Shown one piece after another: positions 23,974 through 47,914 of a stretch of DNA of 64,000 nucleotides; position 1 is the stretch's first letter; each line of letters opens with the position of its first letter. Both the position numbers and the translations under genes were made by a program. Source of the stretch: Polaribacter haliotis (GTDB lineage Bacteria > Bacteroidota > Bacteroidia > Flavobacteriales > Flavobacteriaceae); assembly GCF_014784055.1 (NCBI RefSeq), contig NZ_CP061813.1:1808001-1872000 (forward strand). Direction: 5' to 3'. The notes under the pieces are model-generated. The model was not told the DNA's origin. It worked only from the letters and a program-made list of their open reading frames with translations, and did not search any database.

Positions 23974-25167
23974 TTAAATTACTCCTAACTCTATACCAAC
24001 TTTTTTAAAAGCCGAAATCGCTTTATCTAAATGTTCTTGTGTATGTGCTGCAGATAACTGTACTCGTATTCTTGCTTTTTCTTTTGGAACTACTGGAAAG
24101 AAAAATCCAATTACATAAATACCTTCTTCTAATAACTTATTTGCCATTGTTTGAGATAATTGTGCATCATACAACATTACTGGTACAATTGCTGCATCTG
24201 CTCCAACCAAATCGAAACCTGCTTTTTCCATTTCTGTTCTAAAGTAATTCGTGTTCCATTCTAGCTTATCTCTTAAAGTGGTATCATTAGAAATTAAATC
24301 GAAAACTTTTAAAGAAGCTCCAACAATTGCTGGCGCTAATGAATTTGAAAATAAATATGGTCGAGAACGTTGTCGTAAAATCTCAATAATCTCTTTTTTT
24401 CCTGTGGTGTAACCACCCATTGCTCCTCCAAGCGCTTTTCCTAAAGTTCCTGTAACGATGTCTACTCTATTCATTACGTTTTTAAGCTCCACAGTTCCTC
24501 TTCCTGTTTTTCCTATAAAACCTGTTGCATGGCATTCATCAACCATAACCAAAGCATCGTATTTATCTGCTAAATCGCAAATATCATCTAATTTCGCAAC
24601 AATGCCATCCATGGAGAAAACACCATCTGTAACAATAATTTTAAAACGGTGATTTTGTTTATTCGCTTCAATTAATTGTTCTTCTAAAGAATGCATGTCG
24701 TTATTATTGTAACGATATCTGGCAGATTTACACAAACGAACGCCATCTATAATGGAAGCATGATTTAAACTATCGGAAATAATTGCATCTTCTTTTGTTA
24801 ATAAAGGCTCAAAAACGCCTCCATTTGCATCGAATGCTGCTGCGTATAAAATAGTATCTTCTGTGGTGTAGAAATCTGCAATTTTTTGTTCTAACTTTTT
24901 ATGGATATCTTGTGTACCACAAATAAAACGAACAGAAGACATTCCAAATCCGTGAGAATCTAAGGTGTCTTTTGCAGCCTGAATTACTTCTGGATTGTTA
25001 GACAAGCCCAAATAATTATTCGCACAAAAGTTTATAACTTCTTCTCCAGTGGATATTTTTATAACTGCATCTTGAGATGATGTTATAATCCTTTCAGATT
25101 TGTATAAACCTGCATCTTTTATTTCTTGAAGTTCTTGCGATAATTGCTCTTTTATTTTTCCGTACAT
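23974..25167 (-). CDS. kbl: 2-amino-3-ketobutyrate CoA ligase (glycine C-acetyltransferase)
   Basis: Converts 2-amino-3-ketobutyrate plus CoA to glycine and acetyl-CoA, second step of threonine degradation. PLP enzyme of the alpha-oxoamine synthase family, 397 residues, full length. Visible landmarks: [16 protein letters not shown] near the N-terminus, [27 protein letters not shown] with the PLP-contacting Asp/His, and [15 protein letters not shown] carrying the Schiff-base lysine. The start is 5 bp after the stop of the dehydrogenase gene, so the two form an operon for complete threonine to glycine conversion. Confidence 0.96.
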
Positions 25168-25172
25168 ATTTT

Positions 25173-26123
25173 TTAAATTGTTACTAATTTATACTTTTCT
25201 TCTAATTTTTGAATCATAATTTTAGACATCGTATTTAAATTGTAAACTGGTTTCCAGCCCCAATCTACTCTTGCATTTGTATCGTTAATACTTTGTGGCC
25301 AAGAACTTGCTATTTTTTGTCTAAAATCTGGCTTATAACTTATTTCAAAATCTGGGTATATCTTTTTTATTGCTTCAAAAATTTCTTTTGGATTAAAACT
25401 CATTCCTGCTAAATTATAAGAAGTTCTTATAGAAATTCTTTCTTTTGGAGCATCCATTAATTCTAATGTAGCTCTAATTGCGTCTTCCATAAAAATCATA
25501 GGCAATATAGTATCTTCTTCTAAAAAACAGCTAAATTTTTCTTTTTTAACTGCTTTGTGATAAATATCTACAGCATAATCTGTAGTACCTCCTCCAGGCA
25601 AGGATTGGTAACCAATAACTCCTGGATATCTTAACGATCTTACATCTAATCCATATTTTTCGAAATAATAATTCCCCCAATTCTCCCCAGAACTTTTGCT
25701 AATTCCGTAAACGGTAGTTGGTGTTAAATTTGGATTTTGTGGTGTGTTTTCTCGTTCTATTTTATCACCAAATACAGCTATTGAACTTGGATAAAATACT
25801 TTATCTACTCCATTTAATCTAGAAATTTCTAAAACATTAAAAAGAGATTTCATATTAATATCCCAAGTTCTTAGCGGGTTTTCTTCTCCTTTTGCAGATA
25901 AAATTGCTGCTAAATGGTAAATTTGGGTTATTTTATTTTTGGTTACGATTTTTTCCATCGCTTTGTAATTTGTAGCATCTAATTGTTCGAAATGTCCAAT
26001 GAAATTTGGTTTTTCAAACAAATCTGTGGCAATTACATTTTGCTCGCCAAATTTTTGTTGCAATTCTTTCGTTAATACAGATCCTAACTGACCTCCTGCA
26101 CCAGTTATTAAAATTTTAATCAT
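25173..26123 (-). CDS. tdh: L-threonine 3-dehydrogenase, SDR/epimerase-like type
   Basis: Oxidises L-threonine to 2-amino-3-ketobutyrate with NAD+. 316 residues of the extended short-chain dehydrogenase fold: NAD-binding GAGGQLGS at residues 8-15, YPSSIAVFG, and the catalytic Tyr-x3-Lys in TVYGISK. General sequence resembles UDP-sugar epimerases, but the adjacency to kbl and resemblance to the known flavobacterial SDR-type threonine dehydrogenase favour this function. Unusually, its upstream region (26165-26220) carries an operator-like repeat of the PUL2 type, suggesting joint control with glycan use. Confidence 0.92.
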
Positions 26124-26164
26124 AACCGTAATTTATTTTATGAATAATTATGTACATTTTAAGG

Positions 26165-26220
26165 ACAAATTTCCATTTAATTTCAATTTAAAATGGATGT
26201 TTTATTCATCAAAAGAGGTG
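26165..26220 (-). promoter_or_regulatory. PUL2-type operator and promoter upstream of tdh-kbl
   Basis: Read on the minus strand: CACCTCTTTTGATGAAT (first repeat) and CATCCATTTTAAAT (second), their CA steps 21 bp apart and CC steps 22 bp apart. A -7-like box GAAATTTG (26173-26166) follows at 23 bp, the same distance as for susC of PUL2. The motif CTTTTGATGAAT nearly matches CCTTTTTGATGAAT (minus strand of 35737-35750). Confidence 0.5.
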
Positions 26221-26269
26221 CATTAATTTGTCAATTAAAAGTATTTTGGTTTGTTTAGATAAAATGGTT

Positions 26270-26312
26270 AAAAAGAAAGGAATAAATCGATATTTTTTCA
26301 TCAATTTATTCC
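26270..26312 (-). terminator. Terminator after the short DUF3472 gene
   Basis: Minus-strand hairpin GGAATAAAT / ATTTATTCC followed by a T-rich run (A-rich on plus, 26270-26278). The same hairpin stem and the flank AAACTAATTCAAA recur after the longer paralogue at 27839-27880. Confidence 0.7.
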
Positions 26313-26354
26313 TAATAAAACTAATTCAAACACTAATTTTTATTGCTCTTTGTT

Positions 26355-27704
26355 TTAAAGGATAGGTTTTGGTAACTTAGAAAAGTTAATATTAGGTGCT
26401 TTACCATTTGCTTCTCTAGAAAAATTTGTTTTTGGAGTTACATTTTCATTAAAAAAACCACAGTTTTTTAAGAAAAATTTATTTCCAATAACTCCCCCTG
26501 CATAATCTAATCTTTCATTTGCATTTGCTGTGGCATCTGCAGTAAATGTTCCTTCTGTAATTTCTAACCATTCTTTATTTGTGGTATAAACCCATTGATT
26601 TCCGAAATTAACTTTTCTTGTTTGGTTTCCAGTACTTGGATAAAAATTCTCTAAAAATGAATACAACCCTTTTAAATGTGTGGATGTTTTTGGTCTCCTT
26701 AAGCTCGCTATTATTTGCCAATTTCCAATTAATGGATCATAAAAATAGGCAGTATAATCAGTAGATCCTGCCACAGAAGATGGTTCTCCTTTCAATAAAA
26801 ATCGGTAGGCTGTATCTACTTTCCAGTTTACATTTTTAAAACACTGAATTCCAGAACCTTCTCCTCCAAAATTTTTAATAATTACTCCTTCTCCACCTCC
26901 TAAACTTGTTACTGTATAATCTTTTGGAATTTGTTTTGGATCGTCTGTCACAAAAGCACTCCAAATAGAAAATAATACACGTCTTTCTGATTTAGAATTT
27001 ACTTGTATTCCAAAATAACCCTGTGCATGTCCATTTGCCATAAAAAAGCTGCCTAATTTATCTTCTCCAGCTGGAACTATAATTTCATTATAAAAATACT
27101 CCACTTCTCCACTTTTTGGTTGGTTGTAATTAAAATGTACAGAAGGGCCTCTTCTACCAAAATGATGATTTTTAGATGGTACAAAATTTAAAGTTTTCTT
27201 AACGGCTGTACCTCCAAAAAGTACTTCGTCTATATCTGCAATTATGTTTCCCTTTTTCTCTTTTCCTTGAATTTCGATTTTTACATATCCTTCATCAACA
27301 TTAAAAGTTCCTACGTTTATAGTTTGGTACTCTTTATTTTCTACCTCTATTGTTTTTGTAACATTATTTACAGTTATGTTCATTTTAGATTTCCCATCAG
27401 GAGATTTCATTTTTAAACCAACGTTTAATTTTCCACTTCCTGTTCTTACATAGGTGTTAAGCACATCGTCTAAAGAAGTCCAATTACGGATTTCTTCTTT
27501 TGTAAGAATGTTACCATTTTCTGGGTTATTTCCAGCAATCCAACTATTAGAAGCTATTGGAACACTTGCTGTAAAAACTGTATCTAATGTCGCATTTTTC
27601 TTTGCCACATTTGAACAAGAATAGTTAGATAGTATAATTTGTAATATAAACATCGTAAAAAACACTTTTCTAACGTTGTTTTTTTTATTCATTACATTAT
27701 TCAT
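26355..27704 (-). CDS. DUF5077-DUF3472 lipoprotein, short paralogue
   Basis: 449 residues; lipobox YSC after a long signal. Residues about 45-165 are a DUF5077-like beta domain (SNSWIAGNNPENGN, GKLNVGLKMKSPDGKSKMN, GYVKIEIQGKEKKGN). The rest is DUF3472-like (FGRRGPSVHFNYN, FYNEIIVPAGEDKLGSFFMA, GHAQGYFGIQVNS, RRVLFSIWSAFVTDDP, IASLRRPKTSTHLKG, KNCGFFNENV). I know of no defined reaction for DUF3472; these proteins recur in PULs, so a glycan-active or glycan-binding role is plausible. Close tandem copy of the neighbouring gene but without its C-terminal F5/8 domain. It has its own operator at 27752-27806. Confidence 0.8.
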   Translation of the reverse strand: MNNVMNKKNNVRKVFFTMFILQIILSNYSCSNVAKKNATLDTVFTASVPIASNSWIAGNNPENGNILTKEEIRNWTSLDDVLNTYVRTGSGKLNVGLKMKSPDGKSKMNITVNNVTKTIEVENKEYQTINVGTFNVDEGYVKIEIQGKEKKGNIIADIDEVLFGGTAVKKTLNFVPSKNHHFGRRGPSVHFNYNQPKSGEVEYFYNEIIVPAGEDKLGSFFMANGHAQGYFGIQVNSKSERRVLFSIWSAFVTDDPKQIPKDYTVTSLGGGEGVIIKNFGGEGSGIQCFKNVNWKVDTAYRFLLKGEPSSVAGSTDYTAYFYDPLIGNWQIIASLRRPKTSTHLKGLYSFLENFYPSTGNQTRKVNFGNQWVYTTNKEWLEITEGTFTADATANANERLDYAGGVIGNKFFLKNCGFFNENVTPKTNFSREANGKAPNINFSKLPKPIL

Positions 27705-27751
27705 AATATATTAAAATTTCTGGTTGTTGATTATTGAAATAAACTTCTCTA

Positions 27752-27806
27752 CAAAATTGAGATATTTTTATTATAAAATGAGGGACTTATTCATCAGAAA
27801 AGGAGT
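27752..27806 (-). promoter_or_regulatory. PUL2-type operator upstream of the short DUF3472 gene
   Basis: Minus strand: ACTCCTTTTCTGATGAAT (from 27806) followed 22 bp on by a weaker CCTCATTTT, then AATTTTG (27758-27752) as a -7-like box. The ATTCATCAGAAAAGGAGT form on the plus strand matches that upstream of susC2 with one base inserted/changed. Confidence 0.45.
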
Positions 27807-27838
27807 ATAATTTTGCGAAAACGTCTTTTTAATCTCTA

Positions 27839-27880
27839 GAAAAAAAGGAATAAACCAATAACTTCTTATCGATTTATTCC
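27839..27880 (-). terminator. Terminator after the long DUF3472 gene
   Basis: Minus-strand stem GGAATAAA / TTTATTCC with a T run after it (plus-strand A run 27841-27846). Homologous to the terminator at 26270, consistent with duplication of gene plus 3' untranslated region. Confidence 0.6.
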
Positions 27881-27911
27881 TAACCAAACTAATTCAAAAT
27901 AATTGGTGTTA

Positions 27912-29762
27912 TTAATATGTATATGCTTTTACTTCTGCTAATGCTGCGTTTTCTGTACCATCATGAGAAGCACGAGCAATAATTTTAAAATACCTGAAGG
28001 TTTTAGGCGCATTAAAATCTATATTTTGTGCTAATTTAGAATTCTCTAACGTAAAACTCCCTAAAGAAGTCCATGTGGTTTTATCTGAGCTTATTTCTAT
28101 ATCTAATGTTTTTATAGTTCTCGATAAATTTTGTCTTTGAAAGAATTGTAATCCTTCTACAGTTTGCTCAGAACCCATATTAACAATTAGATTATGAGGT
28201 GCAGTTGCAACACAACCTCCACTCCAACAAGAATGCCAAAAAGTATCTAGTTTTCCATCAATAATATCTGCAGCTCTTCCTGTACTCCCTTCTCCACCTT
28301 TATCTTCTTGGGTACTAAAACTATCTAATGTCCAAGAAGAATTATTTAATATGTTTACATCTTTGGGTGTTGCAAGAATCGTTGGTACAGGTAATTTAGA
28401 GAAATCTATAATTGGTGCAGTGCCATTTAAACTTCTAGTAAATAATGTGTTTGGTGTTACATTATCATTAAAAAAACCACAGTTTCTTAAATAGAAAGAA
28501 TTCCCTTCTGTACCTCCTGCATAATCGAATCTATCTCCTTCTGAAGCTGTAGCATCTGCAGTATAAGTTCCTTCATTTAATTCTATCCAATTTCCTTCTG
28601 TAGTATAAGCCCATTGATTTCCATACTTTACTTTTCTTTCCTGATTACCTGTACTTGGAATAAAATTCTCTAAAAAAGAGTGTGTTCTTTTTATATAAGT
28701 TGTTGTTTTTGGTCTTCTTAAACTAGCTATTAATTCCCATTCTCCTACTTCTGGATCAAAAAAGTAACCAGTATAATCTGTTGAACCTTCTACAGATGCT
28801 GGTTCTCCTTTTAATAAAAACTTATAAGTAGTTCCTGCTTTCCAATTTGCATTTTTAAAACTTTGCAATCCTGACCCTTCATTACCAAAATCTTGTACTG
28901 TTACTCCTGGTCCATTTCCTAAATTGGTTACTTTATAGTCTTTAGGAATTTGATTTGGATCATCAGTTACATAGGCACTCCAAACAGAAAATAACACACG
29001 TCTTTCTGTACTTGAATTTACTTGCATTCCAAAATACCCATTTGAATGTCCATTTACCATAAAGAAAGTTCCTAATTTATCTTGTCCTTCTGTTACAGTA
29101 ACTTCGTTATAAAACCATTTTGTATCTTTTCCATTAGGAAGTTTGTAGCCCATATGTACAGATGGCCCTCTTCTACCAAAATAATCGTTAGTATCTGGCA
29201 CAAAATTTAAAGTTGTTGCTACTGCTGTTCCTCCAAAAAGAATTTCATTAATGTCTCCAATATAAGTTCCTTTTTTACTATTTCCTTGAATTTCAATTTT
29301 CACATACCCTTCAGTAACATCAAAAATTCCTACATCTACAATTTCGTAGCTTGTATTTTTAATATCTATGGTTTTTGTAACTCCATTTATTGTTACATTA
29401 ATTTTAGATTCACCATCTGAAGATTTCATTTTTAAACCAACATTTAATTTTCCACTTCCTGTCTTTACATAAGTGTTAATTACATCGTTTAAAGATTGCC
29501 AATTATGTATACCTTCTTTAGAAATAATATCTCTATCTTTTTCAGGATCTCCAACTAGCCAGCTATTAGAACCAATGGGAACCGTTTTTGTAAGACTTAA
29601 TCTTGTTGGAGCTGGATCTGAATCTCCACCTTCAGGAGCTACTTCTACTGGAACTGAATCCACAGTTCCTTTACTTGAACAAGAAGAAAGATATAGTGTT
29701 GTATTTAATAATAATATTACAAAAAGAAAAAACTGTAAATTTTTAGATTTGTTCGTTATCAT
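27912..29762 (-). CDS. DUF5077-DUF3472 lipoprotein with C-terminal F5/8 type C domain
   Basis: 616 residues, lipobox LSSC followed by a low-complexity linker (PVEVAPEGGDSDPAPT). DUF5077-like domain about residues 60-180, DUF3472-like domain about 185-470 (FGRRGPSVHMGY, FYNEVTVTEGQDKLG, RRVLFSVWSAYVTDDP, LRNCGFFNDNV), then a discoidin/CBM32-like domain about 480-616 (GRAADIIDGKLDTFWHSCW, HNLIVNMGSEQTVEGLQFF, FRYFKIIARAS). CBM32 modules often bind galactose or GalNAc, fitting the GH109 gene 31 bp upstream with which it is co-transcribed. Enzymatic activity of the DUF3472 part is unknown. Confidence 0.82.
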   Translation of the reverse strand: MITNKSKNLQFFLFVILLLNTTLYLSSCSSKGTVDSVPVEVAPEGGDSDPAPTRLSLTKTVPIGSNSWLVGDPEKDRDIISKEGIHNWQSLNDVINTYVKTGSGKLNVGLKMKSSDGESKINVTINGVTKTIDIKNTSYEIVDVGIFDVTEGYVKIEIQGNSKKGTYIGDINEILFGGTAVATTLNFVPDTNDYFGRRGPSVHMGYKLPNGKDTKWFYNEVTVTEGQDKLGTFFMVNGHSNGYFGMQVNSSTERRVLFSVWSAYVTDDPNQIPKDYKVTNLGNGPGVTVQDFGNEGSGLQSFKNANWKAGTTYKFLLKGEPASVEGSTDYTGYFFDPEVGEWELIASLRRPKTTTYIKRTHSFLENFIPSTGNQERKVKYGNQWAYTTEGNWIELNEGTYTADATASEGDRFDYAGGTEGNSFYLRNCGFFNDNVTPNTLFTRSLNGTAPIIDFSKLPVPTILATPKDVNILNNSSWTLDSFSTQEDKGGEGSTGRAADIIDGKLDTFWHSCWSGGCVATAPHNLIVNMGSEQTVEGLQFFQRQNLSRTIKTLDIEISSDKTTWTSLGSFTLENSKLAQNIDFNAPKTFRYFKIIARASHDGTENAALAEVKAYTY

Positions 29763-29793
29763 AGTAATTTTTTTAATTAATTTATTTTATTTA

Positions 29794-31385: not shown

Positions 31386-34300
31386 ATGAATATAAAAACA
31401 CTTCCATTATTTATAATCTTACTTCTTTTTTCGACTTACTTTTTTTCACAGAATAGTATAAAAATTAAGAATATAAATCCAGTTTATAATAATAAAAAGA
31501 TAGCTATTAGTAGTGTTTCTAATGACTTAACAGGTAATATTTGGATGGCAAATTCTCTAGGTATTTTAAAATACAATGGCTATTCTTATACTTTAATAAA
31601 AAATACAGATGTATTTCCAGAAATTTCTTCTTCAGATAGGGTTTATGAAATGTATTCAGACAAAGAACATAATATTTGGATACGTTCACTTGAAGGTTTA
31701 GTGTCTAAATACAATTCTAAAACAGGGGTTTTTATTCCTATTTACAAGCTATTAAATGAAAAAATAAGAACAATAAAACCTATAGATAATGGGTTAATTT
31801 TAGGTTCTAATAGCGGAAAAATTTACACCTATTTTAATGAAAATATTAAACATATATGTACAATTCCTAATATTAATGGAACAGATAAACGAATACTTGA
31901 TTTAGAATTTGATGGGAATACTACTTTTTTTATATCTGATAATTCCGGAAAAATTTACACATATAATAAAAACTCTAAAAATTTAAAAGAACTAGTAAAT
32001 GGGTTTATTGATTTTGAAGTAAATACAATTCTTCAAATGGACAATTATAACAAACTTTGGATTGGTACAGATGCACAAGGTTTTTTTATTTATGACACAA
32101 AAGAAAACAAGTTTATTGAAAAAAAATTTTTAAAAGGTGCCGTTAATAAATTAGATAAAGAACTTTTTATAAGTATTTTTAAAGACAGTTTTGGCATTAT
32201 TTGGGCTGGTACAGATGGTGGAGGTTTGTATAAAATGGATTCAAAAACAGGATTAGTAGAAGTTTTTAAACACACATACCCTTCAGAATTTACATTGGGC
32301 AGTAACACTATTTTAAGTGTTAGCGAAGATCTTAATAATAATATTTGGATTGTCTGCAATTTTCAAATTATAAACGTTATTCCTAAAACGAACCCAACAG
32401 TAAATTTTATTCCTGGTTCTGCAGATAAAAGAACAACACGAGTATTAAGTTTACATAAAAGCAAAAACGGTACTCTATGGGTAGGTACAGATGGAAATGG
32501 TTTGAGTGAACTTAAAAACAACAAACAATCTAAACAATATTTTAATGATATTAATAATAACTTCTATGTACAATGTATTACAGAAGACGATTATGGAAAC
32601 ATTTGGTTTGGAACTTATCGAAATGGTATTTGGAAATATAATACCCGCTCAAAATCTTTTAAAAAAATACCATTAAAAAATAAACAAAATCAGTTTGCGA
32701 TTGACGTAAGATTAACATTTAAAGATTCTAAAGGTCGTATTTGGGTAGGTTCTAATGTTGCTTTAAATGTATATGATAAAAATGAAAAATTAATTGCAAG
32801 TTTTAACAATAGAGAAAATGGACTTGATGGTTTTAGTATAGAAACAGCACTCGAAGACGAGAATAATGTACTTTGGTTTGGACAACAGTTTGGTGGTTTA
32901 TTCAGATTTGATGAAGCAGAAAACCTGCAAGAATCTCGTTTTGCAAATTTCGATAACGGTAAAATTAACGGAGAAATTCGTGTAATAGACATGGTTTTAG
33001 GTAAGAAAAACGAAATTTGGTTTATAAACGAGAAGCTAAAGTTAATTTTATTTAATACAGTAACGAAAGAGTTTAAAGACTTCAAAGATTCTTACCAAAA
33101 TAAAACACTTAATTTCACAGCAATAAATACTTTAGATAGAGAAAATTTTTGGCTGAGTTCTATCCAAGGAGTTCATCACTTTAATTCCAAAACAAAAAAA
33201 ATATTATCCTACTACTCTACAGATGGTTTTCAGGAAAATAGATATTTCTACAGAAGTACACTAACAAATAATGGAAATATATATTTTGGAGGAGAAAAAG
33301 GAATAAATTACTTTAATCCTTTAAAATTAGAAAAAATGGTTGCGCATCCGCAATTATCTATCTCAGATATTACCATATTAAATCAACCAGCTAGAGATAT
33401 TATTCCAAATCAAATTTCTTCTAACAATTACGATTTTAAAGAAATAACACTTAAAAACAATCAATCTTCATTTTCTGTAAAATTCGCAGCAATCGATAAT
33501 ATTTTAAATCCTAATTTTTTATACTCTTATCGATTAAAAGGATTTGAAGAAGAATGGAAAACAACATATTCTGAAGGTATAGCCACTTATACCAATATTC
33601 CAGATGGAACATATACATTAGAAATTAAAGCAAAGGAAATAAACCAAACAACTGCAACATTAAAAAATAATATCCATATAAATATTTTACCACCTTTTTG
33701 GAAAACTTGGTGGGCATGTTTAATTTATCTACTACTTTTTACCTTACTTGTTTTAGTTTTTTTTAAATGGTATGGACTTAGAAAAAAGTTTTTAATAAAT
33801 CGAATAAGTAGAAGAAAAGAAAAAGAACTTCATTCGGAAAAAATGAACTTTTTCACAAAAATGTCTCATGAAATTCAAACCCCTATTACACTTATTATTG
33901 GTCCAATAGAAGACATGTTAAAAAGAGCAGAGATGAATGGAAACTTACTCTTAGAAGAACGTTTAAATATTATTAGAAATAATGCAGTAAGACTTTCTCG
34001 AATTGCGAAAGAATTAACTCTTGTAAAAAACAAAGATTTAAAAAGACTAAAATTATCTGTCACAGAAAACGATTTATATACAGACATTAACAGCATCTGC
34101 TTATCCTTTAAAGAAATAGCGAGAAGTAAAAAAATAGATTTCTCTGTAAACTGCCCAAAAAATATTGAAAGTGCCTGGTATGATAAAGAAAAATTAGAAC
34201 ATATTTTATATAATATAATTGGCAATGCTTTTAAGTTTACACCAGTTGAAGGAAATATTCAAGTAATTGTTAAGCCTGTAGATAAGAAAAACAATATTAA

Positions 34301-38900: not shown

Positions 38901-38989
38901 ATTTTTGGGATCCAGAATTAGGTGATGGTAATGGTGCTGTATATCCGAATATCTCAACATATAACTTTGGTCTTAGACTTACATTTTAA
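35936..38989 (+). CDS. SusC-like TonB-dependent outer-membrane importer (PUL2)
   Basis: 1017 residues. Signal peptide ending TGYSQ; carboxypeptidase-regulatory-like domain (RGSVYEKDTGYPLPSANVQV); DEIILVGYGKQKKQSAVGAQ leading into the plug; plug motif LKDATSTAVYGTRGANGV; barrel with terminal aromatic (NFGLRLTF). Imports an oligosaccharide together with the SusD-like protein 10 bp downstream. It is not a close copy of the PUL1 SusC (different plug and loop sequences), consistent with another substrate. Transcribed from the operator-promoter at 35734-35844. Confidence 0.96.
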   Translation: MTKATFTYLFLIVFTITGYSQTKTVRGSVYEKDTGYPLPSANVQVKGTSKGVTTNFDGNYEINVKVGDIIVFSYLGFENKEVKIEQKDVIDVYLTSSASQLDEIILVGYGKQKKQSAVGAQSSIKATELKIPVRDLTTAIAGRLSGVVSTERGGGPGSNGANLFIRGVATFSSSPQGPLLVVDGVPDRSINNIDPEDIESFTILKDATSTAVYGTRGANGVILIVTKKGKVGKPIINVEVNQAITKFTALPEFIDGPTFQTLYNEAQVTRGKNPAFTQDRIDLTASGADPDLYPNVDWYDTILRDFATNKRLNISVSGGAEAARYYISAGYFGEDGLFKTGDVDNFNSKLSLDRFNFTSNVDVNITKSTKLDLGITGFVTNFNAPAIGVNELFNLTTSTAPHIIPGGTYSNGQWPQLQGTRESPFQALTQSGVQNVYRNSFRTNIRLTQELDFILDGLSATGMFAFDINATNTNRRSRFLQTYYATGRDADGNLITEVSSPGNEELSFSNSSSSDRRFYTEAAVNYAQTFGNHEVSGLLLFNQSDFRIANPGSYVASLPFRQRNYVGRATYGYNEKYFAEANFSYSGSDQFVPSERYGFFPSFGAGWLVSNEKFFKPIENIVSYMKLRYSFGQSGNAAVSDPNLRFLYLSRLGDSGGYTFGSPGATRGFTGFNEQLIGGNTKWETTYKQNLGIEVSFLNNDLDLIVELFNERREGILLKNFVIPYSSGLTVGNIPLSNVGKTKNKGIDITLNYDKRWSMDNFFSFRGTFNYNKNEAVFNGLPPFRYDYQNRIGQPISQRFGYVATGLFETQDEVDNAAIQNGDTRPGDIRYKDLNGDGIINSDDQTAIGLGSIPRITYGLTFAGGFKGFDASLFFQGVGQVDFNYASGFGTQPFVQGPTYGNVYTNVLDRWTEANPNPNAFYPRLSTNETLTSNYVTSTFWTKRADYIRLKQAEIGYTLVGGEDVSEKYFKKLRIFINGTNLLTFSKWDFWDPELGDGNGAVYPNISTYNFGLRLTF

Positions 38990-38999: not shown

Positions 39000-40829
39000 A
39001 TGAAAATTTCAAATTATAAACAAACTGTTTTTCTTTTATTATCATTACTATTTGTTTTTCAAAGTTGTGATAGTGATTATTTAGAAGCACAGCCAGAAAA
39101 CAATCTTAATACAGACGCAATATTTCAAAACAGAAACCAAACAGAAAGATGGTGGGCAGGTTTATTTACACGTATTCCAGATTTCTTTAACATGCCATAT
39201 GGTTTTCAATATTCGTTTATGACAGACGAATTAGATTCAAGTCAATGGAACTTACCTGTCATTAATAGTGGAGCATTAAATCCTGCTTCTTCCCCATCTA
39301 ACTTTCAACAGTTATATGAATCTATTCGTTTATGTTCTATATTTTTACAAAACATAGAAGGCAATCAAGAATTACAATCTTTACAAAATGGAGATAAAAT
39401 TATTGCACAATACAGAGGAGAAGCAACATTTTTAAGAGCATATTATTATTGGTATATGATGCGTCAAGTAGGGCCTGTTGTAATTGTACCTTTAGAACCA
39501 GCAAGTCCAACAGACGAATTACAAATTCCTAGAAGTACTTGGGATGAGTCTGTAGAATTTGTACTAACTCAATTAGAATTAGCAAAGGCAGATTTACCTA
39601 CAGACTATTTTCAAACTGGTACCACTACTGTAGATGCTTCACAAATTGGACGTATCAATAAAATGATTGTTGAAGCTGTAGAATCTCAAATATTACTTTA
39701 TCATGCAAGCCCATTGTATAATGGTAATACAACTATGACAGATTTTACTAACTTAGATGGAACTCAATTATTAAATAGTAATTACGACGCTGGTAGATGG
39801 GCAACAGCAGCAACTGCTGCCAAGAGAGCTATTGATATTGCTGAAGCTAATGGAAAAGGATTATATACTGCTAATGGAAGTAGTGCTTTTGAAACTGCAT
39901 ACAACTCAGTAAGAAACATGTATTGGGATGGATGGCAAACAGAAGGAGTTTGGGTAAGACCATCTTCTGCAGTAACCGGAACTTACGAAATTCATGCTTC
40001 ACCAAGAGGAATTGCAGGAACTGCATATAATGGAATTGCTGTTGTTCAAAAATTAGTTGATGATTTTAGAACAGCAAGTGGCTTAAAAATTGAAGATGAT
40101 CCAAATTATACAGAAGTAAATTATGAAGCAACTGCAACACCATATTATGTTGCTGGAACAAACTCTATGTTTGCAAATAGGGAAGCAAGATTTTATGCTA
40201 ACGTTAACTTTAATGGAGCTGTTATGCCTGGAAATCCAAAACCGGGAGAAACTGCAGTAGAATTCTACAACACAGGAAATTCTGGAAAAGCCGGAGCTCC
40301 AAGAGATTGGCCTAAAACCGGTTTTTCTGCTAGAAAAAACGTACATCCAACATTTAGTGTAAACCCTTATGTAGCTGTAAGCAGACCAGCAATGCTTATA
40401 AGAGTTGCAGAATTATACTTAAATTATGCAGAAGCACTTAACGAATCTAGTCCTGGAAATCCAGATATTACTAATTATTTAAACAGAGTTAGAAATAGAG
40501 CAGGTTTACCAAATATAGCAAGTGGGTTAAGTCAATCTCAAATGAGAGAAGAAATAAGATTGGAAAGAAGAATAGAACTTTGTTACGAAGGTGCTCACAG
40601 ATTTTCTGATGTAAGAAGATGGATGGTTGCAGAAGAAGAAGGTTATAAACAAGGAGGAGACTACTTTGGAATGACAATGGACGCTGGAAATACATTATCA
40701 AGCCCAGAATTTCATGTTAGATCTAAAGCATTCGAAAGAGCATCTTGGCAACGTAAATACTATTTTTTACCTTACGGTCAGAATGAAGCTGATAGAAATT
40801 TAGAATTAGTTCAGTTTCCAGGATATTAA
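39000..40829 (+). CDS. SusD-like surface glycan-binding lipoprotein (PUL2)
   Basis: 609 residues from ATG at 39000, which opens the signal peptide with lipobox FQSC (Cys23); an in-frame ATG at 38922 lies inside susC and is rejected. RagB/SusD features: FLRAYYYWYMMRQVGPV, AMLIRVAELYLNYAEALNE, NYLNRVRNRAGLP, RIELCYEGAHRFSDVRRWM, and the end YFLPYGQNEADRN. Acidic residues after the cysteine suggest surface display. Works with the SusC-like protein at 35936. Confidence 0.95.
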   Translation: MKISNYKQTVFLLLSLLFVFQSCDSDYLEAQPENNLNTDAIFQNRNQTERWWAGLFTRIPDFFNMPYGFQYSFMTDELDSSQWNLPVINSGALNPASSPSNFQQLYESIRLCSIFLQNIEGNQELQSLQNGDKIIAQYRGEATFLRAYYYWYMMRQVGPVVIVPLEPASPTDELQIPRSTWDESVEFVLTQLELAKADLPTDYFQTGTTTVDASQIGRINKMIVEAVESQILLYHASPLYNGNTTMTDFTNLDGTQLLNSNYDAGRWATAATAAKRAIDIAEANGKGLYTANGSSAFETAYNSVRNMYWDGWQTEGVWVRPSSAVTGTYEIHASPRGIAGTAYNGIAVVQKLVDDFRTASGLKIEDDPNYTEVNYEATATPYYVAGTNSMFANREARFYANVNFNGAVMPGNPKPGETAVEFYNTGNSGKAGAPRDWPKTGFSARKNVHPTFSVNPYVAVSRPAMLIRVAELYLNYAEALNESSPGNPDITNYLNRVRNRAGLPNIASGLSQSQMREEIRLERRIELCYEGAHRFSDVRRWMVAEEEGYKQGGDYFGMTMDAGNTLSSPEFHVRSKAFERASWQRKYYFLPYGQNEADRNLELVQFPGY

Positions 40830-40850: not shown

Positions 40851-41813
40851 ATGAAAACAAATAATATATACAAATCATTTTTAATTGTAATAATGGTTTC
40901 TCTTTCAATTTCTTGTGAAGATGAAACACCAGCTTATGAACAATTAACAGATTCAAAAGAGAATGCTCAAATATTTATTGCAAAAGCTGTAAATGGAGCT
41001 GTAGATTTAGAAATTTTTCCTTATGCAGACCAAAGAGAAACTAACTTTGGTATTGGTTTTGGAGGTGTAGGACTTCCTGCTAGTGATATTTCTGTTAAAC
41101 TAGAAATAAACCAAACTGCTTTAGATAGTTTAAATCAAATAAGAGTTGCAAGTGGTAGAGATCCTTATTTAATTTTCCCATCAGATGCATATGAAATAGG
41201 AGATTTATCTTTTACAATTCCAGCAGGAAAACAATCTTCTGGAGTAACTAAACTTACTTATTTCCCTAATAAATTTGATAGCTCTTCCGATTTTGCTTTG
41301 CCATTGACAATTGTAGAATCTTCAGGTTACAATGTAAACCCTTCAACTAAAAATATTATTTTTTTAGCAAATGCACCAAGAGAAAGAGTTGCAAATACAA
41401 ATGGTTGGATAGCAACTGCGTCTTCATCTCAAGACAATGGTTGGGAAAATACAGGTTTAGCTAGTGCACTTTTAGATGGTGATCTAAATACGATTTGGCA
41501 CTCAGAATACAGTCCTACAACTCCAGGCTACCCTCATACTGTAAGTTTTGATATGACAAAAAAGATATTTGTTACAAAAGTACAAATAGCTCCACGTCAA
41601 AATAATAACTCTGGGCCTACTAAATTTTATTTAGAAGGTACAAATGGTGGAGATTGGATAAAACTAACAGAAGAATTAGATTTTAATCCAGCAAACATTG
41701 ATTTTCAAGAATACGTTATAACAGGGCAAACTTTAGATAAGATTAGAATGGTTATGACAGAAGGAAGGCAAACAGTAAGCTTCTTATCAGAATTTAAAGT
41801 CTTTGCGTTCTAA
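40851..41813 (+). CDS. DUF1735-F5/8 type C surface lipoprotein
   Basis: 320 residues, lipobox SISC (Cys22) followed by EDE. Residues about 40-175 are DUF1735-like (FIAKAVNGAVDLEIFPYADQ, DAYEIGDLSFTIPAGKQSSG, FALPLTIVESSGYNV); such domains occur in surface binding proteins and some endo-glycosidase lipoproteins. Residues about 180-320 are a discoidin/CBM32-like domain (GLASALLDGDLNTIWHSEY, HTVSFDMTKKIFVTKVQI). No catalytic domain, so it is probably the SusE-position glycan-binding protein of PUL2. 21 bp after susD and followed by a strong terminator. Confidence 0.85.
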   Translation: MKTNNIYKSFLIVIMVSLSISCEDETPAYEQLTDSKENAQIFIAKAVNGAVDLEIFPYADQRETNFGIGFGGVGLPASDISVKLEINQTALDSLNQIRVASGRDPYLIFPSDAYEIGDLSFTIPAGKQSSGVTKLTYFPNKFDSSSDFALPLTIVESSGYNVNPSTKNIIFLANAPRERVANTNGWIATASSSQDNGWENTGLASALLDGDLNTIWHSEYSPTTPGYPHTVSFDMTKKIFVTKVQIAPRQNNNSGPTKFYLEGTNGGDWIKLTEELDFNPANIDFQEYVITGQTLDKIRMVMTEGRQTVSFLSEFKVFAF

Positions 41814-41854: not shown

Positions 41855-41889
41855 AAAATCTGTGGAAAATAATTCCACAGATTTTTTTA
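41855..41889 (+). terminator. Intrinsic terminator of the susC2-susD2 operon
   Basis: Stem AAATCTGTGGAA / TTCCACAGATTT, 12 perfect pairs with a five-base loop, followed by a T run. It lies 42 bp after the stop codon. Confidence 0.9.
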
Positions 41890-41907
41890 TTTACTATAGT
41901 TTTAGAA

Positions 41908-41931
41908 AGTAACAGTTTTAATTCTGTTACT
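41908..41931 (+). repeat. Inverted repeat upstream of the galactose operon
   Basis: AGTAACAG and CTGTTACT, perfect 8-bp arms with an eight-base spacer, followed by ATAAAAAAAA. Could be a second hairpin after the upstream operon or a protein-binding site; I cannot decide. Confidence 0.45.
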
Positions 41932-42003
41932 ATAAAAAAAATTTTCATGATATCTGTTTAAATTAATTTGAAATATATTGAATAATTATTACAAATAAAA
42001 CAT

Positions 42004-42019
42004 ACCAGTACCTACTAGT
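42004..42019. promoter_or_regulatory. Candidate operator of the GntR-type gal regulator
   Basis: ACCAGTA and TACTAGT, 7-bp arms with one mismatch around a CC spacer. It overlaps the TTG -33 element of the galactose operon promoter, a position expected for autorepression. Confidence 0.5.
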
Positions 42020-42048
42020 TGTTTTATAATAAAATATTGATATCTTTG
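42019..42048 (+). promoter_or_regulatory. Promoter of the galactose operon
   Basis: TTG (42019-42021), 19-bp spacer, TATCTTTG (42041-42048), a full match to the Bacteroidota TTG/TAnnTTTG consensus. The ATG at 42053 is only 5 nt past the -7 box, so the transcript would be leaderless or nearly so. Confidence 0.8.
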
Positions 42049-42052
42049 CAAC

Positions 42053-43048
42053 ATGAAAATAGTTTCTCTAAAAAAATCTGGTGTTCCAAAATACAAGCAA
42101 ATTGTAAACTCAATTGAGCGTGCAATTGTTAGTGGAAAACTAAAAAAAGGAGACAAGCTACCTTCTTTAAATGTTGTAAAAGACCAACATAAATTATCCA
42201 GAGACACTGTTTTAAACGCTTTTAACGAACTTAAAACGAGAGGAATCATTCATTCTGTGGTTGGAAAAGGCTATTTTGTAAGTAGTGAAGATGTACTTGT
42301 AAAAAAGAAAATCTTTCTACTTTTCGATGAATTAAATTCTTTTAAAGAAGATTTATACAACTCATTTTTAGATTGTTTGGGCGATAATTGTCAAGTAGAT
42401 ATTTTTTTTCATCATTTTAACGAAGATGTTTTTAACAAATTGATAAACGACAATAATGGCAATTACAGTTCTTATGTAATAATGCCTGCAAATCTAAAAA
42501 ATGTAAATGTTGCAGTTGATAATTTACCGAAAGAGAACGTTTATATTTTAGATCAAAAACATCCTGAGCTATTAGACTATCCAGTAATTTTTCAAAATTT
42601 CGAAAAAGATATTTTCAACGGACTTTCCAGTGCTTTATCAAAACTAAAAAATTACAAAAAACTGATTTTATTATTCCCAAAAGTGAAACAACCTAAAGGA
42701 ATTTTAAATGGTTTTCAACTATTTTGTGACGCAAACAATTTTAATTCGGAAGTAATTTCTTCTTTAGAAAACAGCACTCCCAAAAAAGGAGAAGTCTATT
42801 TAATTTTAGATGATAAAAACCTGATTCGAATCATTAAAAAGATAAAAGAAAACAACTTACAATTATCTAAAGATATTGGTTTAATTTCTTTTAATGATAC
42901 TATTTTAAAGGAAGTTGTTGCAGATGGAATTACAACCATATCTACCGATTTTAATTTAATGGGAGAAAAATTGGCGCAAATGATTTTAAATAACGAGCAC
43001 ACGAAAATTGAAAATCCGAGTGCCTTAATTTTAAGAAAATCTTTATAA
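42053..43048 (+). CDS. GntR-family regulator with sugar-binding-like C-terminus
   Basis: 331 residues. Residues 1-80 are a GntR winged helix (YKQIVNSIERAIVSGKLKKG, LPSLNVVKDQHKLSRDTV, VGKGYFV). From about 90 on the fold looks like a LacI-type periplasmic-binding domain (KKIFLLFDELNSFKEDLYNS, IGLISFNDTILKEVVADGIT, ISTDFNLMGEKLAQMIL). Such proteins repress sugar genes until a sugar or sugar phosphate binds. Its stop is 2 bp from galM, so it heads the galactose operon and probably controls it, with a candidate operator over its own promoter at 42004. The effector is inferred to be galactose-derived. Confidence 0.88.
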   Translation: MKIVSLKKSGVPKYKQIVNSIERAIVSGKLKKGDKLPSLNVVKDQHKLSRDTVLNAFNELKTRGIIHSVVGKGYFVSSEDVLVKKKIFLLFDELNSFKEDLYNSFLDCLGDNCQVDIFFHHFNEDVFNKLINDNNGNYSSYVIMPANLKNVNVAVDNLPKENVYILDQKHPELLDYPVIFQNFEKDIFNGLSSALSKLKNYKKLILLFPKVKQPKGILNGFQLFCDANNFNSEVISSLENSTPKKGEVYLILDDKNLIRIIKKIKENNLQLSKDIGLISFNDTILKEVVADGITTISTDFNLMGEKLAQMILNNEHTKIENPSALILRKSL

Positions 43049-43050
43049 AT

Positions 43051-43941
43051 ATGTTTACTATTAAAGAAAAAAACGAAAGTAGTTTCAACTTAGTAGAACT
43101 AAATAACACCAGAAACAATTCGCATGCTCGTATTTCTCTAAATGAAGGTGGAAGATTACAAAACTTAAAATTTAAAGGGATTTCTATTATTGAAGATCAA
43201 CCAAATTTCCATTATAAAGACTGTTATTCCTCTGCGATTTTATTTCCATTTGCCAATAGAATCGAAGAAGGAAAATATACTTACAAAAACAAAGAATATC
43301 AATTTAAAAGCAACGAACCTAAAAGTAAAAACGCCTTACATGGTTTGGTTTTTAACAAAGATTTTAAAATTTTAGAAAAAGAAATTACTTCTAATAGTGC
43401 TTCTGTTACTATATATTATTCAGAAAAAAATGACTGTAAAAGCTTTCCTTTTAAATATTCGCTTTATGCAACCTACACGCTTTTAGAAGAAGAATTACAA
43501 CTAAAAATATCTGTAAAAAACGATGACTCAACATCATTTCCATTTGTTTTAGGCTGGCATCCTTATTTTAATTGCGACGATTTTAAAAACAGTTTCCTCA
43601 ATTTTAAAAGTGATAAAAAAGTAATTTTCGATAAAAATTTAATTACAAAAGAAATAGTAGACCATAAAACAGCTTCAAAATTTGAATTGGAGAACAAACA
43701 TTTAGACGATGGATTTGTTCTTGAAAATGATGTTATAAAGTTTTCTACGCCTAAATATCAATTAGAATTATCATCAACATCTAAAGAAAACTTTTTACAA
43801 TTATACACTCCTAAAGATAAACCAATTATTGCTATTGAATCTATGACAGGGATTTCTAATAGTTTTAACAACAAAATAGGTTTGCAAGAATTAGAAGCTA
43901 AAAAAAGCTATGCTTTAACTTGGACTGTAAAATTTTTATAA
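43051..43941 (+). CDS. galM: Aldose 1-epimerase (mutarotase)
   Basis: Interconverts alpha and beta anomers of galactose, feeding galactokinase. 296 residues, slightly short but whole. Visible family features: GGRLQNLKFKGISII, FPFANRIEEGKY with the conserved Arg, NALHGLVFNK with the active-site His, LGWHPYFN with the second His, and the late LQLYTPKDKPIIAIESMTG holding the conserved Glu. Cytoplasmic, no signal. Lies between the regulator and galK with short gaps of 2 and 12 bp. The divergent group would also fit a generic aldose 1-epimerase; context makes galactose most likely. Confidence 0.88.
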   Translation: MFTIKEKNESSFNLVELNNTRNNSHARISLNEGGRLQNLKFKGISIIEDQPNFHYKDCYSSAILFPFANRIEEGKYTYKNKEYQFKSNEPKSKNALHGLVFNKDFKILEKEITSNSASVTIYYSEKNDCKSFPFKYSLYATYTLLEEELQLKISVKNDDSTSFPFVLGWHPYFNCDDFKNSFLNFKSDKKVIFDKNLITKEIVDHKTASKFELENKHLDDGFVLENDVIKFSTPKYQLELSSTSKENFLQLYTPKDKPIIAIESMTGISNSFNNKIGLQELEAKKSYALTWTVKFL

Positions 43942-43953
43942 AACCGAATTAAT

Positions 43954-45102: not shown

Positions 45103-45121
45103 TCAACTAACAAACAATCGT

Positions 45122-46144
45122 ATGAACAATACAAATTTGCAAGATTACTCGCATAAAAGATTTAATATTTTAACTGGAGAATGGGTTTTGGTTTCTCCTC
45201 ACAGAGCAAAAAGACCTTGGCAAGGACAAAATGAAGAAATTTCTACTGAAAAAAGACCTTCTTATGACGAAAGTTGCTATTTATGTGCAACAAACACAAG
45301 AATTAACGGGGAAGTAAATCCCGATTATAAAGACGTTTTTATTTTTACCAACGATTTTGCTGCGCTTCAAAAAGATTCGCCAAAATTTAATGTGAATGAT
45401 GGTTTATTGCAAGCAAAAAGCGAAAATGGAATTTGTAAAGTAATTTGTTTTAGCCCAGATCATTCAAAGAGTTTGGCAGACATGGAAGTTGCTGACATTA
45501 AAAAGGTGGTAAATACTTGGCAAAAAGAATATGTTTCTATTGGTGAAATTGAAGGCATAAATTATGTTCAAATTTTTGAAAACAAAGGAGCAGTAATGGG
45601 TTGTAGCAATCCTCATCCTCATGGACAAATCTGGAGTCAGACTTCGTTACCTAATGAAGTTGATAAAAAAAATCAGCAACAATTAGCCTATTATAAAGAG
45701 AAAAAAAGTAGTCTTTTAGGAGATTATTTACAACAAGAACAAACATCTAAAGAAAGAATTATTTTTGAAAATGACGATTTTTTAGTGTTGACTCCTTTTT
45801 GGGCAATTTGGCCTTTTGAAGTGATGATTGCTCCTAAAAAAGCGCAAAAAAACATCACAGAAATGACCGAAAACGAAGCTTTAAATTTCGCAGAAGCAAT
45901 TTCTGTTATTACAAAAGCGTATGACAAGTTGTTCAACACTTCTTTCCCATATTCTTCTGGAATACATCAAGCACCCACAGATGGAGAAGAAAATAAACAT
46001 TGGCATTGGCATATGAGTTTTTATCCACCTTTGTTAAGAAGCGCAACTGTAAAGAAATTTATGGTGGGTTATGAGATGTTTGGATCGCCACAAAGAGATA
46101 TTACTGCAGAAATTGCTGCAGCTAGATTAAAAGAATTAGTTTAA
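45122..46144 (+). CDS. galT: Galactose-1-phosphate uridylyltransferase
   Basis: Transfers UMP from UDP-glucose to galactose-1-phosphate. 340 residues, full length. Active-site HxH in CSNPHPHGQIWSQ, N-terminal metal-binding CYLCATNT, and HWHWHMSFYPPLLRS near the end. Third enzyme of the operon. No UDP-glucose 4-epimerase gene lies beside it; the epimerase-like gene at 25173 is better read as threonine dehydrogenase, so galE must be elsewhere. Confidence 0.95.
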   Translation: MNNTNLQDYSHKRFNILTGEWVLVSPHRAKRPWQGQNEEISTEKRPSYDESCYLCATNTRINGEVNPDYKDVFIFTNDFAALQKDSPKFNVNDGLLQAKSENGICKVICFSPDHSKSLADMEVADIKKVVNTWQKEYVSIGEIEGINYVQIFENKGAVMGCSNPHPHGQIWSQTSLPNEVDKKNQQQLAYYKEKKSSLLGDYLQQEQTSKERIIFENDDFLVLTPFWAIWPFEVMIAPKKAQKNITEMTENEALNFAEAISVITKAYDKLFNTSFPYSSGIHQAPTDGEENKHWHWHMSFYPPLLRSATVKKFMVGYEMFGSPQRDITAEIAAARLKELV

Positions 46145-46267
46145 AGATTACCTTTCAAGAGGAATTCAAAAATAAAAGTCCTAAAAAAAATTAACAATTA
46201 CATCTTCTAAAAATTCTGATGTATATTTAGACACATTTAAAATCAACTTACAACTAAAAACCAAATT

Positions 46268-47914
46268 ATGCAATTTCTAACCTTTATAGGATTTACGGCT
46301 TTAGTGGCAATTATCGCTTATTTAAAAACAAGAAGCACAAAGGAAGATTCTTCAGATGGATATTTTTTAGGAGGACGAAGTTTAACAGCTGGAGTTATAG
46401 CTGGTTCTTTATTATTAACTAATCTATCTACAGAACAAATCGTTGGCTTAAATGGAGCTGCTTACGAAAGTGGATTATCTGTAATGGTTTGGGAGACATT
46501 AGCAGCAATTGCAATGGTAGTAACAGCCATGTTTTTATTACCAAGATACTTAAAAGGCGGTTTAACAACAGTTCCTGGGTTCTTGGCGAAAAGATTCGAT
46601 GTTACCACAAAAACACTTACCTCTGGATTATTTCTAACAGGTTATGTAGTTGTTCTGCTTCCTGTAATTTTATATTCTGGTTCTTTAGCCATTAGCGGAA
46701 TGTTCGATGTTCCTGAATTATTAGGTGTTACTCAAAAAGAATCTATTTGGATTTGTGTTTGGGGAATTGGAATTATAGGTTCTATTTATGCTGTTTTTGG
46801 AGGATTAAAAGCAGTTGCAGTTTCAGATTCTATTAACGCAATTGGTTTATTAATTGGAGGTATTTTAATTCCTATTTTTGGATTGATGATGATTGGAGAT
46901 GGAAGTTTGTTAGATGGTTTATCCATCTTAACAACAGAAAATCCAGATAAATTTAAATCTATGGGAGGAGAAGCAGATCCTGTTCCTTTTTATACGATTT
47001 TTACAGGAATGATGCTAGTTCAATTATTTTATTGGGGAACCAACCAACAGATTATACAAAGAGCTTTAGGAGCAAAAGATTTAAAAGAAGGGCAAAAAGG
47101 TTTATTATTAGCTTCATTTATAAAAATATTGGGGCCAATAATTGTTGTTTTGCCAGGTTTAATTGCTTTTCACTTATTTCAAGGGAATTTAGAATCTGCA
47201 GACAGTGCATATCCAGAATTGGTTAGAAAAGTATTGCCACAAGCTTGGGTTGGTTTCTTTGCTGCTGTTTTATTTGGTGCAATTTTAAGTTCTTTTAATA
47301 GTGTTTTAAACAGTTCTGTAACTTTATTTGGTATAGATATTTACAAACAGCACATCAACAAAGAGGCAGACGAAAAAACAGTAGTAAAATATGGTAAAAC
47401 ATTTGGAGTTATATTAGCAATTGCAGCGATGTTTATTGCTCCATTAATAGCAAATGCAGGAAGCTTATTTGATTATTTACAAGAAATTAACGGAATATAT
47501 AGTATCCCTATTTTAACGATTATTATTGTTGGTTACTTAACAAAATATGTTCCAGCAATAGCCGCTAAAATTGGTTTAGTTTCTGGATGTTTATTGTATG
47601 TAATGAGTCAATTTTTTATGCAACCTTATTTTGTAGATGCTGCAATGGAAGAAGCAAACATAAAAGGAATTACAGATGCAACAGAACTAGCTATTATTGA
47701 AGCACAAGCATATCCTCACTTTTTAGATGTTATGGCTATTTTATTCATTCTAAACGTAATTATTATGTTGATAATCGGAAAATTATATCCAAGAAAAGAA
47801 CCTTTTATTCAAGAATATACAAAACAAGTAGATATTACGCCTTGGAAATACACAAAACATGCTGGTATAGCTATTTGCTTAATTGTGGTTGGGGTTTATG
47901 TTTACTTTGCTTAA
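46268..47914 (+). CDS. Sodium:solute symporter, probable galactose/sugar uptake
   Basis: 548 residues, SSS family (vSGLT-like), cytoplasmic-membrane transporter with about 14 membrane helices. Signature-like stretch SLLLTNLSTEQIVGLNGAAYESG in helix 2 corresponds to the substrate/Na+ region of sugar symporters; YWGTNQQIIQRALGAKD and FGAILSSFNSVLNSS are the other family blocks. Last gene of the galactose operon, 123 bp after galT, followed by a terminator. It would bring monosaccharide from periplasm to cytoplasm after outer-membrane import. Specificity for galactose is inferred from position. Confidence 0.9.
   Translation: MQFLTFIGFTALVAIIAYLKTRSTKEDSSDGYFLGGRSLTAGVIAGSLLLTNLSTEQIVGLNGAAYESGLSVMVWETLAAIAMVVTAMFLLPRYLKGGLTTVPGFLAKRFDVTTKTLTSGLFLTGYVVVLLPVILYSGSLAISGMFDVPELLGVTQKESIWICVWGIGIIGSIYAVFGGLKAVAVSDSINAIGLLIGGILIPIFGLMMIGDGSLLDGLSILTTENPDKFKSMGGEADPVPFYTIFTGMMLVQLFYWGTNQQIIQRALGAKDLKEGQKGLLLASFIKILGPIIVVLPGLIAFHLFQGNLESADSAYPELVRKVLPQAWVGFFAAVLFGAILSSFNSVLNSSVTLFGIDIYKQHINKEADEKTVVKYGKTFGVILAIAAMFIAPLIANAGSLFDYLQEINGIYSIPILTIIIVGYLTKYVPAIAAKIGLVSGCLLYVMSQFFMQPYFVDAAMEEANIKGITDATELAIIEAQAYPHFLDVMAILFILNVIIMLIIGKLYPRKEPFIQEYTKQVDITPWKYTKHAGIAICLIVVGVYVYFA

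Follow-up and report, generated by a model that had tools for sequence, protein, structure and literature searches.

Gene content of the locus

The stretch analysed here (the window) comprises 64,000 nucleotides of the Polaribacter haliotis genome, a single contig of 3.80 Mb (G000:C1:1808001-1872000; genomes and loci are given by G and L numbers, G000 being the source genome). Positions 23,974 to 47,914 hold an island that a preliminary description had read as a possible O-glycoprotein utilization system, uniting genes for N-acetylgalactosamine (GalNAc), galactose and threonine. The assignments behind that reading, namely kbl, tdh, a GH109 protein, galM/galK/galT and a sugar symporter, were borne out by family or PDB matches, and Pfam placed F5/8-type domains in two proteins as described. 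The statement that the window encodes neither protease nor endo-glycosidase had to be abandoned: it contains a PL8 lyase (15499-18561), an M1-family peptidase (49960-52518) and, within the island, two DUF3472 lipoproteins that are predicted to be glycopeptidases. The Pfam scan covered 40 of the 47 open reading frames listed for the window. The minus-strand part of the island reads as follows, in window coordinates.

23974..25167, minus strand: kbl, glycine C-acetyltransferase (2-amino-3-ketobutyrate CoA ligase); TIGR01822, 688 bits (cut-off 493)
25173..26123, minus strand: tdh, SDR-type L-threonine 3-dehydrogenase, accessory copy; PDB matches 5z75, 2yy7 and others
26278..26313, minus strand: terminator-like stem of 15 pairs between DUF3472 (a) and tdh
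26355..27704, minus strand: DUF5077-DUF3472 protein (a), lipoprotein-like start, predicted O-glycopeptidase; PF11958, E 1.8e-99
27846..27881, minus strand: terminator-like stem of 16 pairs with a T run, after DUF3472 (b)
27912..29762, minus strand: DUF5077-DUF3472-F5/8 protein (b), lipoprotein-like start, CBM32-type domain, predicted HC7-like O-glycopeptidase; PF11958, PF16871, PF00754
29794..31164, minus strand, start inferred (listed open reading frame to 31281): GH109, predicted alpha-N-acetylgalactosaminidase with a Tat-type signal; PF21252, PDB 2ixa

The DUF3472 proteins

Going by its predicted structure, DUF3472 itself is probably the protease that the preliminary description missed. Predicted models of protein (b) match structures of HC7, the di-glutamate mucinase of Bacillus cereus (8pn3, 8pn5 and 8pmu), the fold of the catalytic domain being common to both. 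Four glutamates (220, 253, 295 and 365 in protein b) are kept in at least 98.8% of 240 DUF3472 sequences, and two of these four are probably the catalytic pair; Glu 253 and Glu 365 are a guess made from position only. For HC7, the PDB titles name a mutant from which we infer that Glu200 is catalytic. These models make DUF3472 probably a family of glycopeptidases, unrecognized as such in the literature covered (the Nature Catalysis 2024 paper on the di-glutamate mucinase lies outside it). Thousands of DUF3472 proteins are known from genomes and metagenomes, with copies in centipede venom too; the venom proteins, probably bacterial in origin, are called a domain of unknown function (PMC7864903; here and below, PMC numbers refer to excerpts of the papers). 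If the prediction holds, a DUF of no known role would gain a testable job, the cutting of mucin-type glycoproteins, and the DUF3472 proteins of centipede venom would gain a handle.

To place the family in its genomic context, two samples were used. A search of 166 genomes of the genus (thresholds E 1e-30 for DUF3472 and E 1e-125 for window-type tdh) found DUF3472 in 15, G000 included, and the surroundings of all 17 copies were read. A survey of GH109 loci, which kept the best 80 of 243 GH109 relatives and in which most loci reach only 10 kb from GH109, contained DUF3472 in 28 of the 80 (by cluster). Protein (a) has an 81% identical homologue in G013, between GalNAc and galactose operons. A deeper branch of the family, 43-45% identical, was seen in L127, L128, L167, L169 and L170, with no PUL (polysaccharide utilization locus) gene recognized in the stretch.

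Both DUF3472 genes of the window are followed by similar terminator-like stems (26278-26313 and 27846-27881), which suggests that the pair arose by a tandem duplication carrying the 3' ends along. Terminator-like sites in the region numbered 12 against 7.2 expected (sd 3.1).

The threonine genes and their linkage to DUF3472

Tdh and Kbl together convert threonine to glycine and acetyl-CoA, an established pathway. The best PDB match of the window tdh is an artificial protein (5z75, E 1.6e-127), followed among natural proteins by 2yy7 (E 1.8e-106). A second tdh lies elsewhere in the genome (G000:C1:2117179) and is 54% identical to the window copy, and the genome also has a second kbl (L129:9516-10709) whose DNA is 97.2% identical to the first. 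As this identity (97% over about 1.21 kb) is confined to the gene, it suggests a recent duplication or gene conversion.

Window-type tdh was found in 28 of the 166 genomes of the genus, six of which also encode DUF3472 (G000, G080, G081, G112, G141 and G205). In four of these six, tdh is the next gene after DUF3472, on the same strand and across a gap of 231-305 bp (G000, G081, G205 and G112), with kbl adjoining tdh in G205 and G112; in G141 it is kbl that directly follows DUF3472. Of the 15 genomes with DUF3472, five, G000 among them, thus have tdh or kbl adjacent to it, and we take the four of six for tdh to exceed chance.

Surroundings were read for 27 copies of window-type tdh, comprising 20 of the 29 copies in the genus (the other nine all come from genomes with no DUF3472 match) and seven from outside it, these being 7 of the other 23 copies of at least 63% identity; G039, the source of a 24th, and G205 are one genome. 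The copies are not independent, as close kin are found among the genomes (e.g. G018 and G088). A divergent gene for a 153-residue regulator, labelled Lrp from its sequence by eye, flanks 21 of the 27, and none of these 21 has DUF3472, NahK, galK or GH109 in the stretch. The six copies without Lrp comprise the four that follow DUF3472, one that precedes NTP-transferase and NahK genes (G183) and one with only a DUF255 gene upstream (G180). G112 holds a second tdh copy, of the Lrp type.

The tree of tdh sequences unites the copies from G000, G081 and G205 in a clade (support 0.995) and places the DUF3472-linked copy of G112 in another, with G114, G160, G180 and G183 (support 0.965). Because the linked copies fall in different clades, the tree suggests that threonine genes moved beside DUF3472 or GalNAc genes more than once, with at least two separate origins. 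The literature search found no work joining threonine dehydrogenase with mucin and polysaccharide utilization. If the association is functional, there would be PULs organized not only around the sugar of the substrate but around its amino acid too.

DUF255 (YyaL-like) genes are repeatedly found in the genus beside DUF3472, HTCS (hybrid two-component regulator) or tdh genes (L119:10034-12133, L145:15298-17490, L151, L154 and L003:3627-5729).

The GalNAc and galactose genes

About 9 kb to the left of the window lies a row of genes homologous to NagB-PIG-L, a NagP-like transporter, an APH kinase, an NTP transferase and LacI. The APH-family kinase homologue (G000:C1:1797821) is 83% identical to the L119 protein and is of GalNAc-kinase type by family only. 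Of the 15 DUF3472 genomes, four (G013, G081, G112 and G141) have such an operon no more than a few genes away from DUF3472; in G000 the distance is about 36 kb. L008, L013 and L027 carry an APH kinase no more than 10 kb from GH109. Six of the 15 genomes (G000, G112, G131, G138, G141 and G205) have GH109 in the DUF3472 stretch or in L003, a locus that overlaps it. G013 has a bare core, with the GalNAc operon, LacI, DUF3472, DUF255 and GntR-galM-galK-galT.

A GHMP kinase of uncertain substrate was found in 15 of the 80 GH109 loci. In L078:11404-12483, L067:2673-3551 and similar loci of Flavobacteriia, a GHMP kinase (23-27% identical to galK) stands right after GH109, often with an NTP transferase. 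This enzyme is a candidate GalNAc 1-kinase of a family other than the APH type.

The galactose genes of the island lie on the plus strand.

42053..43048, plus strand: GntR-type regulator with a periplasmic-binding-protein-like domain; Pfam
43051..43941, plus strand: galM-like aldose 1-epimerase; PF01263
43954..45102, plus strand: galK, galactokinase; TIGR00131 above cut-off
45122..46144, plus strand: galT, hexose-1-phosphate uridylyltransferase; TIGR00209 and PRK11720 above cut-off
46268..47914, plus strand: SSS-family sodium/sugar symporter; PRK10484 above cut-off, with matches to sodium/glucose cotransporter structures

The galK gene is the sole match in the genome at E 1e-40. Homologues of 56-59% identity occur in 5 of the 80 GH109 loci, and galK is found in the DUF3472 stretch of three of the 15 DUF3472 genomes (G000, G013 and G081). 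A homologue of the GntR regulator heads the gal genes in G001, G006, G009, G013, G015 and G081.

Beside galK, GH2 or SSS genes a gene for a protein of about 1010 residues was observed (L058:11659-14691; similar at L124:15475-18513 and L126:18560-19900). By Pfam, the L058 protein is a fusion of an APH kinase, an M23 domain and a class III aminotransferase, which presumably resembles hydroxylysine kinase plus phospho-lyase and perhaps serves galactosyl-hydroxylysine use.

GH109 and the uptake system

The GH109 protein scored 282 bits to PF21252 (cut-off 27) and matched 2ixa at E 1.3e-148, with the AGHGG loop kept and aligned to that of 2ixa. The exact string GGHGG occurs in none of the 81 GH109 open reading frames of the survey, and 2ixa itself carries AGHGG. 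Because the Tat-type signal MESNSRRSFLKK starts at residue 40 of the listed frame, that frame probably begins too early and the gene probably spans 29794-31164. Among the GH109 relatives found, the closest are from Polaribacter. Divergent from GH109, the plus strand encodes a regulator and an uptake system.

31386..35459, plus strand: HTCS, hybrid two-component regulator, divergent from GH109; Pfam
35936..38989, plus strand: SusC-like TonB-dependent transporter; Pfam
39000..40829, plus strand, start inferred (listed open reading frame from 38922): SusD-like lipoprotein; PDB matches
40851..41813, plus strand: surface glycan-binding protein (SGBP) with a BT_3987-like N domain and an F5/8 domain; PF08522 (which we take to be the former DUF1735), PF00754

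A homologous HTCS was found in 39 of the 80 GH109 loci, mostly directly divergent from GH109. The best PDB matches of the SusD-like protein are 7bll (E 4.8e-45), 5ck1 (E 1.5e-36) and 5cjz (E 2.2e-36). BT3013 (7BLL) belongs to a PUL for which an M60-like peptidase is predicted, and 5CJZ is BT4246 (PMC11992087). In its domain architecture the SGBP resembles BT4245 (PMC11992087). A flavobacterial promoter pattern was of no use (5 matches against 8.6 expected).

The genome holds a second GH109 PUL (L113:3576-17535), with two sulfatases and a PhoD-like protein. GH109 is known from Arenibacter (PMC3721217), in which (L020:1490-2449 and related loci) an M28 peptidase and a sulfatase, sometimes with GH20, were seen beside GH109-HTCS-DUF3472. 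Proteins with a HELGHGLNxPHN metzincin-like motif and a C-terminal CBM32-type domain adjoin the GH109 PUL in L003:1861-3468, L009:3939-5537 and L168:6253-7839; those of L003 and L168 matched no Pfam peptidase family above cut-off, and the proteins are possibly another unrecognized O-glycopeptidase. For the fish-gut strain Th78, by strain name the genome of L005 and L006, the authors discuss how it is equipped for mucus use (PMC4324048).

Proposed function of the island

The basis for interpretation is the gene content, the fold that DUF3472 shares with HC7, the acidic residues kept across the family, and the repeated occurrence together, in other species, of DUF3472, tdh or kbl, GH109 and GalNAc genes. 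Our reading, to which we give a probability of roughly two in three, is that the island is an O-glycoprotein utilization system in which the DUF3472 lipoproteins are predicted HC7-like glutamic O-glycopeptidases. Our verdict is that it is a variant of the mucin O-glycoprotein PUL not described before. From this basis we infer the peptidase activity, the order and compartments of the steps, induction by the HTCS and an origin of the threonine in the glycopeptide. The two DUF3472 lipoproteins would cut GalNAc-bearing proteins, and the resulting glycopeptides would be captured by the SGBP and SusD and imported by SusC, as their families predict. The GH109 protein, predicted to be Tat-exported, would free alpha-GalNAc; at the level of family, galactose would be burned through galM-galK-galT and the symporter, and GalNAc through the kinase row left of the window. 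Threonine would be burned by Tdh and Kbl, and the HTCS would induce the system. Marine mucus-like glycoproteins would, if this is true, be food for these marine bacteria. As to antifreeze glycoproteins, which had also been suggested as substrate, chemistry is the sole support for the idea, and the literature search found no work on their degradation with N-acetylgalactosaminidase.

A number of observations weigh against the proposal. A profile of 44 DUF3472 proteins gave no HC7 match at E values up to 10, which ruled out reaching HC7 by sequence profile. GH16-type glucanases share the DUF3472 fold, more weakly, and a common fold is no proof of function. Five DUF3472 copies of low identity (43-45%) in genomes of the genus lie amid housekeeping-looking genes. 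The island could also be a PUL for a polysaccharide that contains much alpha-GalNAc and galactose but no peptide, with DUF3472 as a glycoside hydrolase of GH16-like fold or a binding protein and tdh-kbl unrelated; the GH16 match is the weaker one, tdh or kbl recurs next to DUF3472, and we consider this rather unlikely.

The proposed O-glycoprotein system also lacks an assigned enzyme for removal of the capping galactose, and no beta-galactosidase, GH2 included, was found among the 40 scanned open reading frames of the window, the rest of the genome not having been searched. M60 (PF13402) had no match in the whole genome (among 14 control genomes, one, E. coli, was matched) and was ruled out as its missing protease; a relative, G080, has M60 beside DUF3472. 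The CBM32 metallopeptidase c85 was likewise rejected, its matches in this genome lying only in the F5/8 part, with no catalytic homologue.

For the threonine genes, neither tdh nor kbl directly follows DUF3472 in 10 of the 15 DUF3472 genomes, G080 and G141 carry tdh elsewhere with Lrp, and all seven contexts read outside the genus were of the Lrp type. The linkage in G000, G081 and G205 may represent one event, since these tdh copies form one clade. Terminator-like stems lie between DUF3472 and tdh in G000 and G081 and between DUF3472 and kbl in G141 (the corresponding stems of G205 and G112 are weaker), and tdh-kbl may accordingly have a transcript separate from that of DUF3472. In the survey, tdh was found in 1 of the 80 GH109 loci and kbl in none, the sole tdh (L078) being 53% identical and of generic type; the first three neighbourhoods of window-type tdh that were read (G002, G016 and G018) had the 153-residue regulator and no gene of the GH109 PUL (PUL2). 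The scarcity in the survey is a sampling artefact, because most loci stop 10 kb from GH109 (in L003, tdh starts less than 1 kb past the locus end), and the idea that the threonine genes are accidental was dropped after the genus-wide search reversed the survey result.

Leloir genes were found with neither DUF3472 nor GH109 in the stretch in G001, G006, G009, G015 and G016, and galactose is therefore the weakest leg of the O-glycoprotein reading. The same five relatives favour the view that no joint function links the modules, a portable Leloir operon and a mobile PUL with GH109 having come to stand beside a tdh-kbl pair that was duplicated and landed here, as do the near-identity of the two kbl genes, the position of the G006 Leloir genes already near DUF58-Trx-MTHFR as in the window, and the division of the minus strand by terminator-like stems. 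Such a collection of modules is quite unlikely, however, given that this combination is met again in species whose outer flanks differ. That GalNAc, galactose and threonine belong together, as first described, thus gained support from recurrence in other species (threonine 5 of 15, GalNAc operon 4 of 15, galK 3 of 15), least so for galactose. On the bolder proposal, that DUF3472 is an overlooked branch of the di-glutamate mucinases and the island a PUL that eats the glycoprotein whole, with cutter, importer, GalNAc-remover, both sugar pathways and a pathway for the anchoring threonine, our judgement is evenly balanced.

The neighbouring chondroitin-type PUL

Positions 437-23677 hold a PUL of chondroitin/dermatan type with the PL8 lyase, which is near chondroitin ABC lyases (E 1e-105), a GH88-like protein below the Pfam cut-off, two sulfatases, SusCD and an HTCS; KduI-family and SDR genes lie just to the left of the window (L131:17071-18726). 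This gene content, together with a Bacteroides caccae chondroitin PUL whose GH109 has both alpha- and beta-GalNAc-ase activity (PMC12269599), raises the view that the window GH109 is a beta-GalNAc-ase serving the adjoining PUL, the island being for glycosaminoglycans or proteoglycans. The window PL8 was matched in none of the 80 GH109 loci, however, and the GH109-HTCS-SusCD-DUF3472 set occurs without PL8 in several genera, making a glycosaminoglycan role highly improbable. The chondroitin-type PUL and the GH109 PUL may share one GalNAc route through the GalNAc operon.

Comparison with known systems

With the Lrp-tdh(-kbl) threonine locus of Flavobacteriia, the island has in common the tdh clade and often the neighbouring kbl, but here there is no Lrp and the upstream neighbour is DUF3472. 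In B. caccae, too, GH109 and genes for chondroitin degradation lie together, but its GH109 is part of the chondroitin PUL, whereas the GH109 of the island belongs to a different PUL that has an HTCS and SusCD of its own. HC7 of B. cereus is about 18% identical to DUF3472 and shares its fold; HC7 carries a CBM5, whereas DUF3472 is preceded by a CBM35/36/6-like DUF5077 and, in protein (b), followed by a CBM32-type domain.

The BT4240-50 mucin PUL of B. thetaiotaomicron contains SusC, SusD, an SGBP with DUF1735 and CBM32, GH109, GH2, a sugar transporter, a GalNAc kinase and an M60 peptidase (PMC11992087). Common to both are SusC, a BT4246-related SusD, a DUF1735 and CBM32-type SGBP and GH109, as well as a sugar transporter of the MFS type and an APH-family kinase gene resembling that of the GalNAc kinase, both left of the window here. 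The two DUF3472 proteins, the Leloir genes, tdh-kbl and the HTCS are found only here, BT4240-50 being under predicted ECF-sigma control. Because M60 is absent from the genome and no GH2 beta-1,3-galactosidase was seen in the window, the island is not filed as a member of the BT4240-50 group. BT4243-GH109 is inactive on the T-antigen until GH2 takes off the core galactose (PMC11992087), and for this reason either a bare-GalNAc substrate or a further enzyme coded elsewhere would be expected here. The island would work like a member of the BT4240-50 PUL group.

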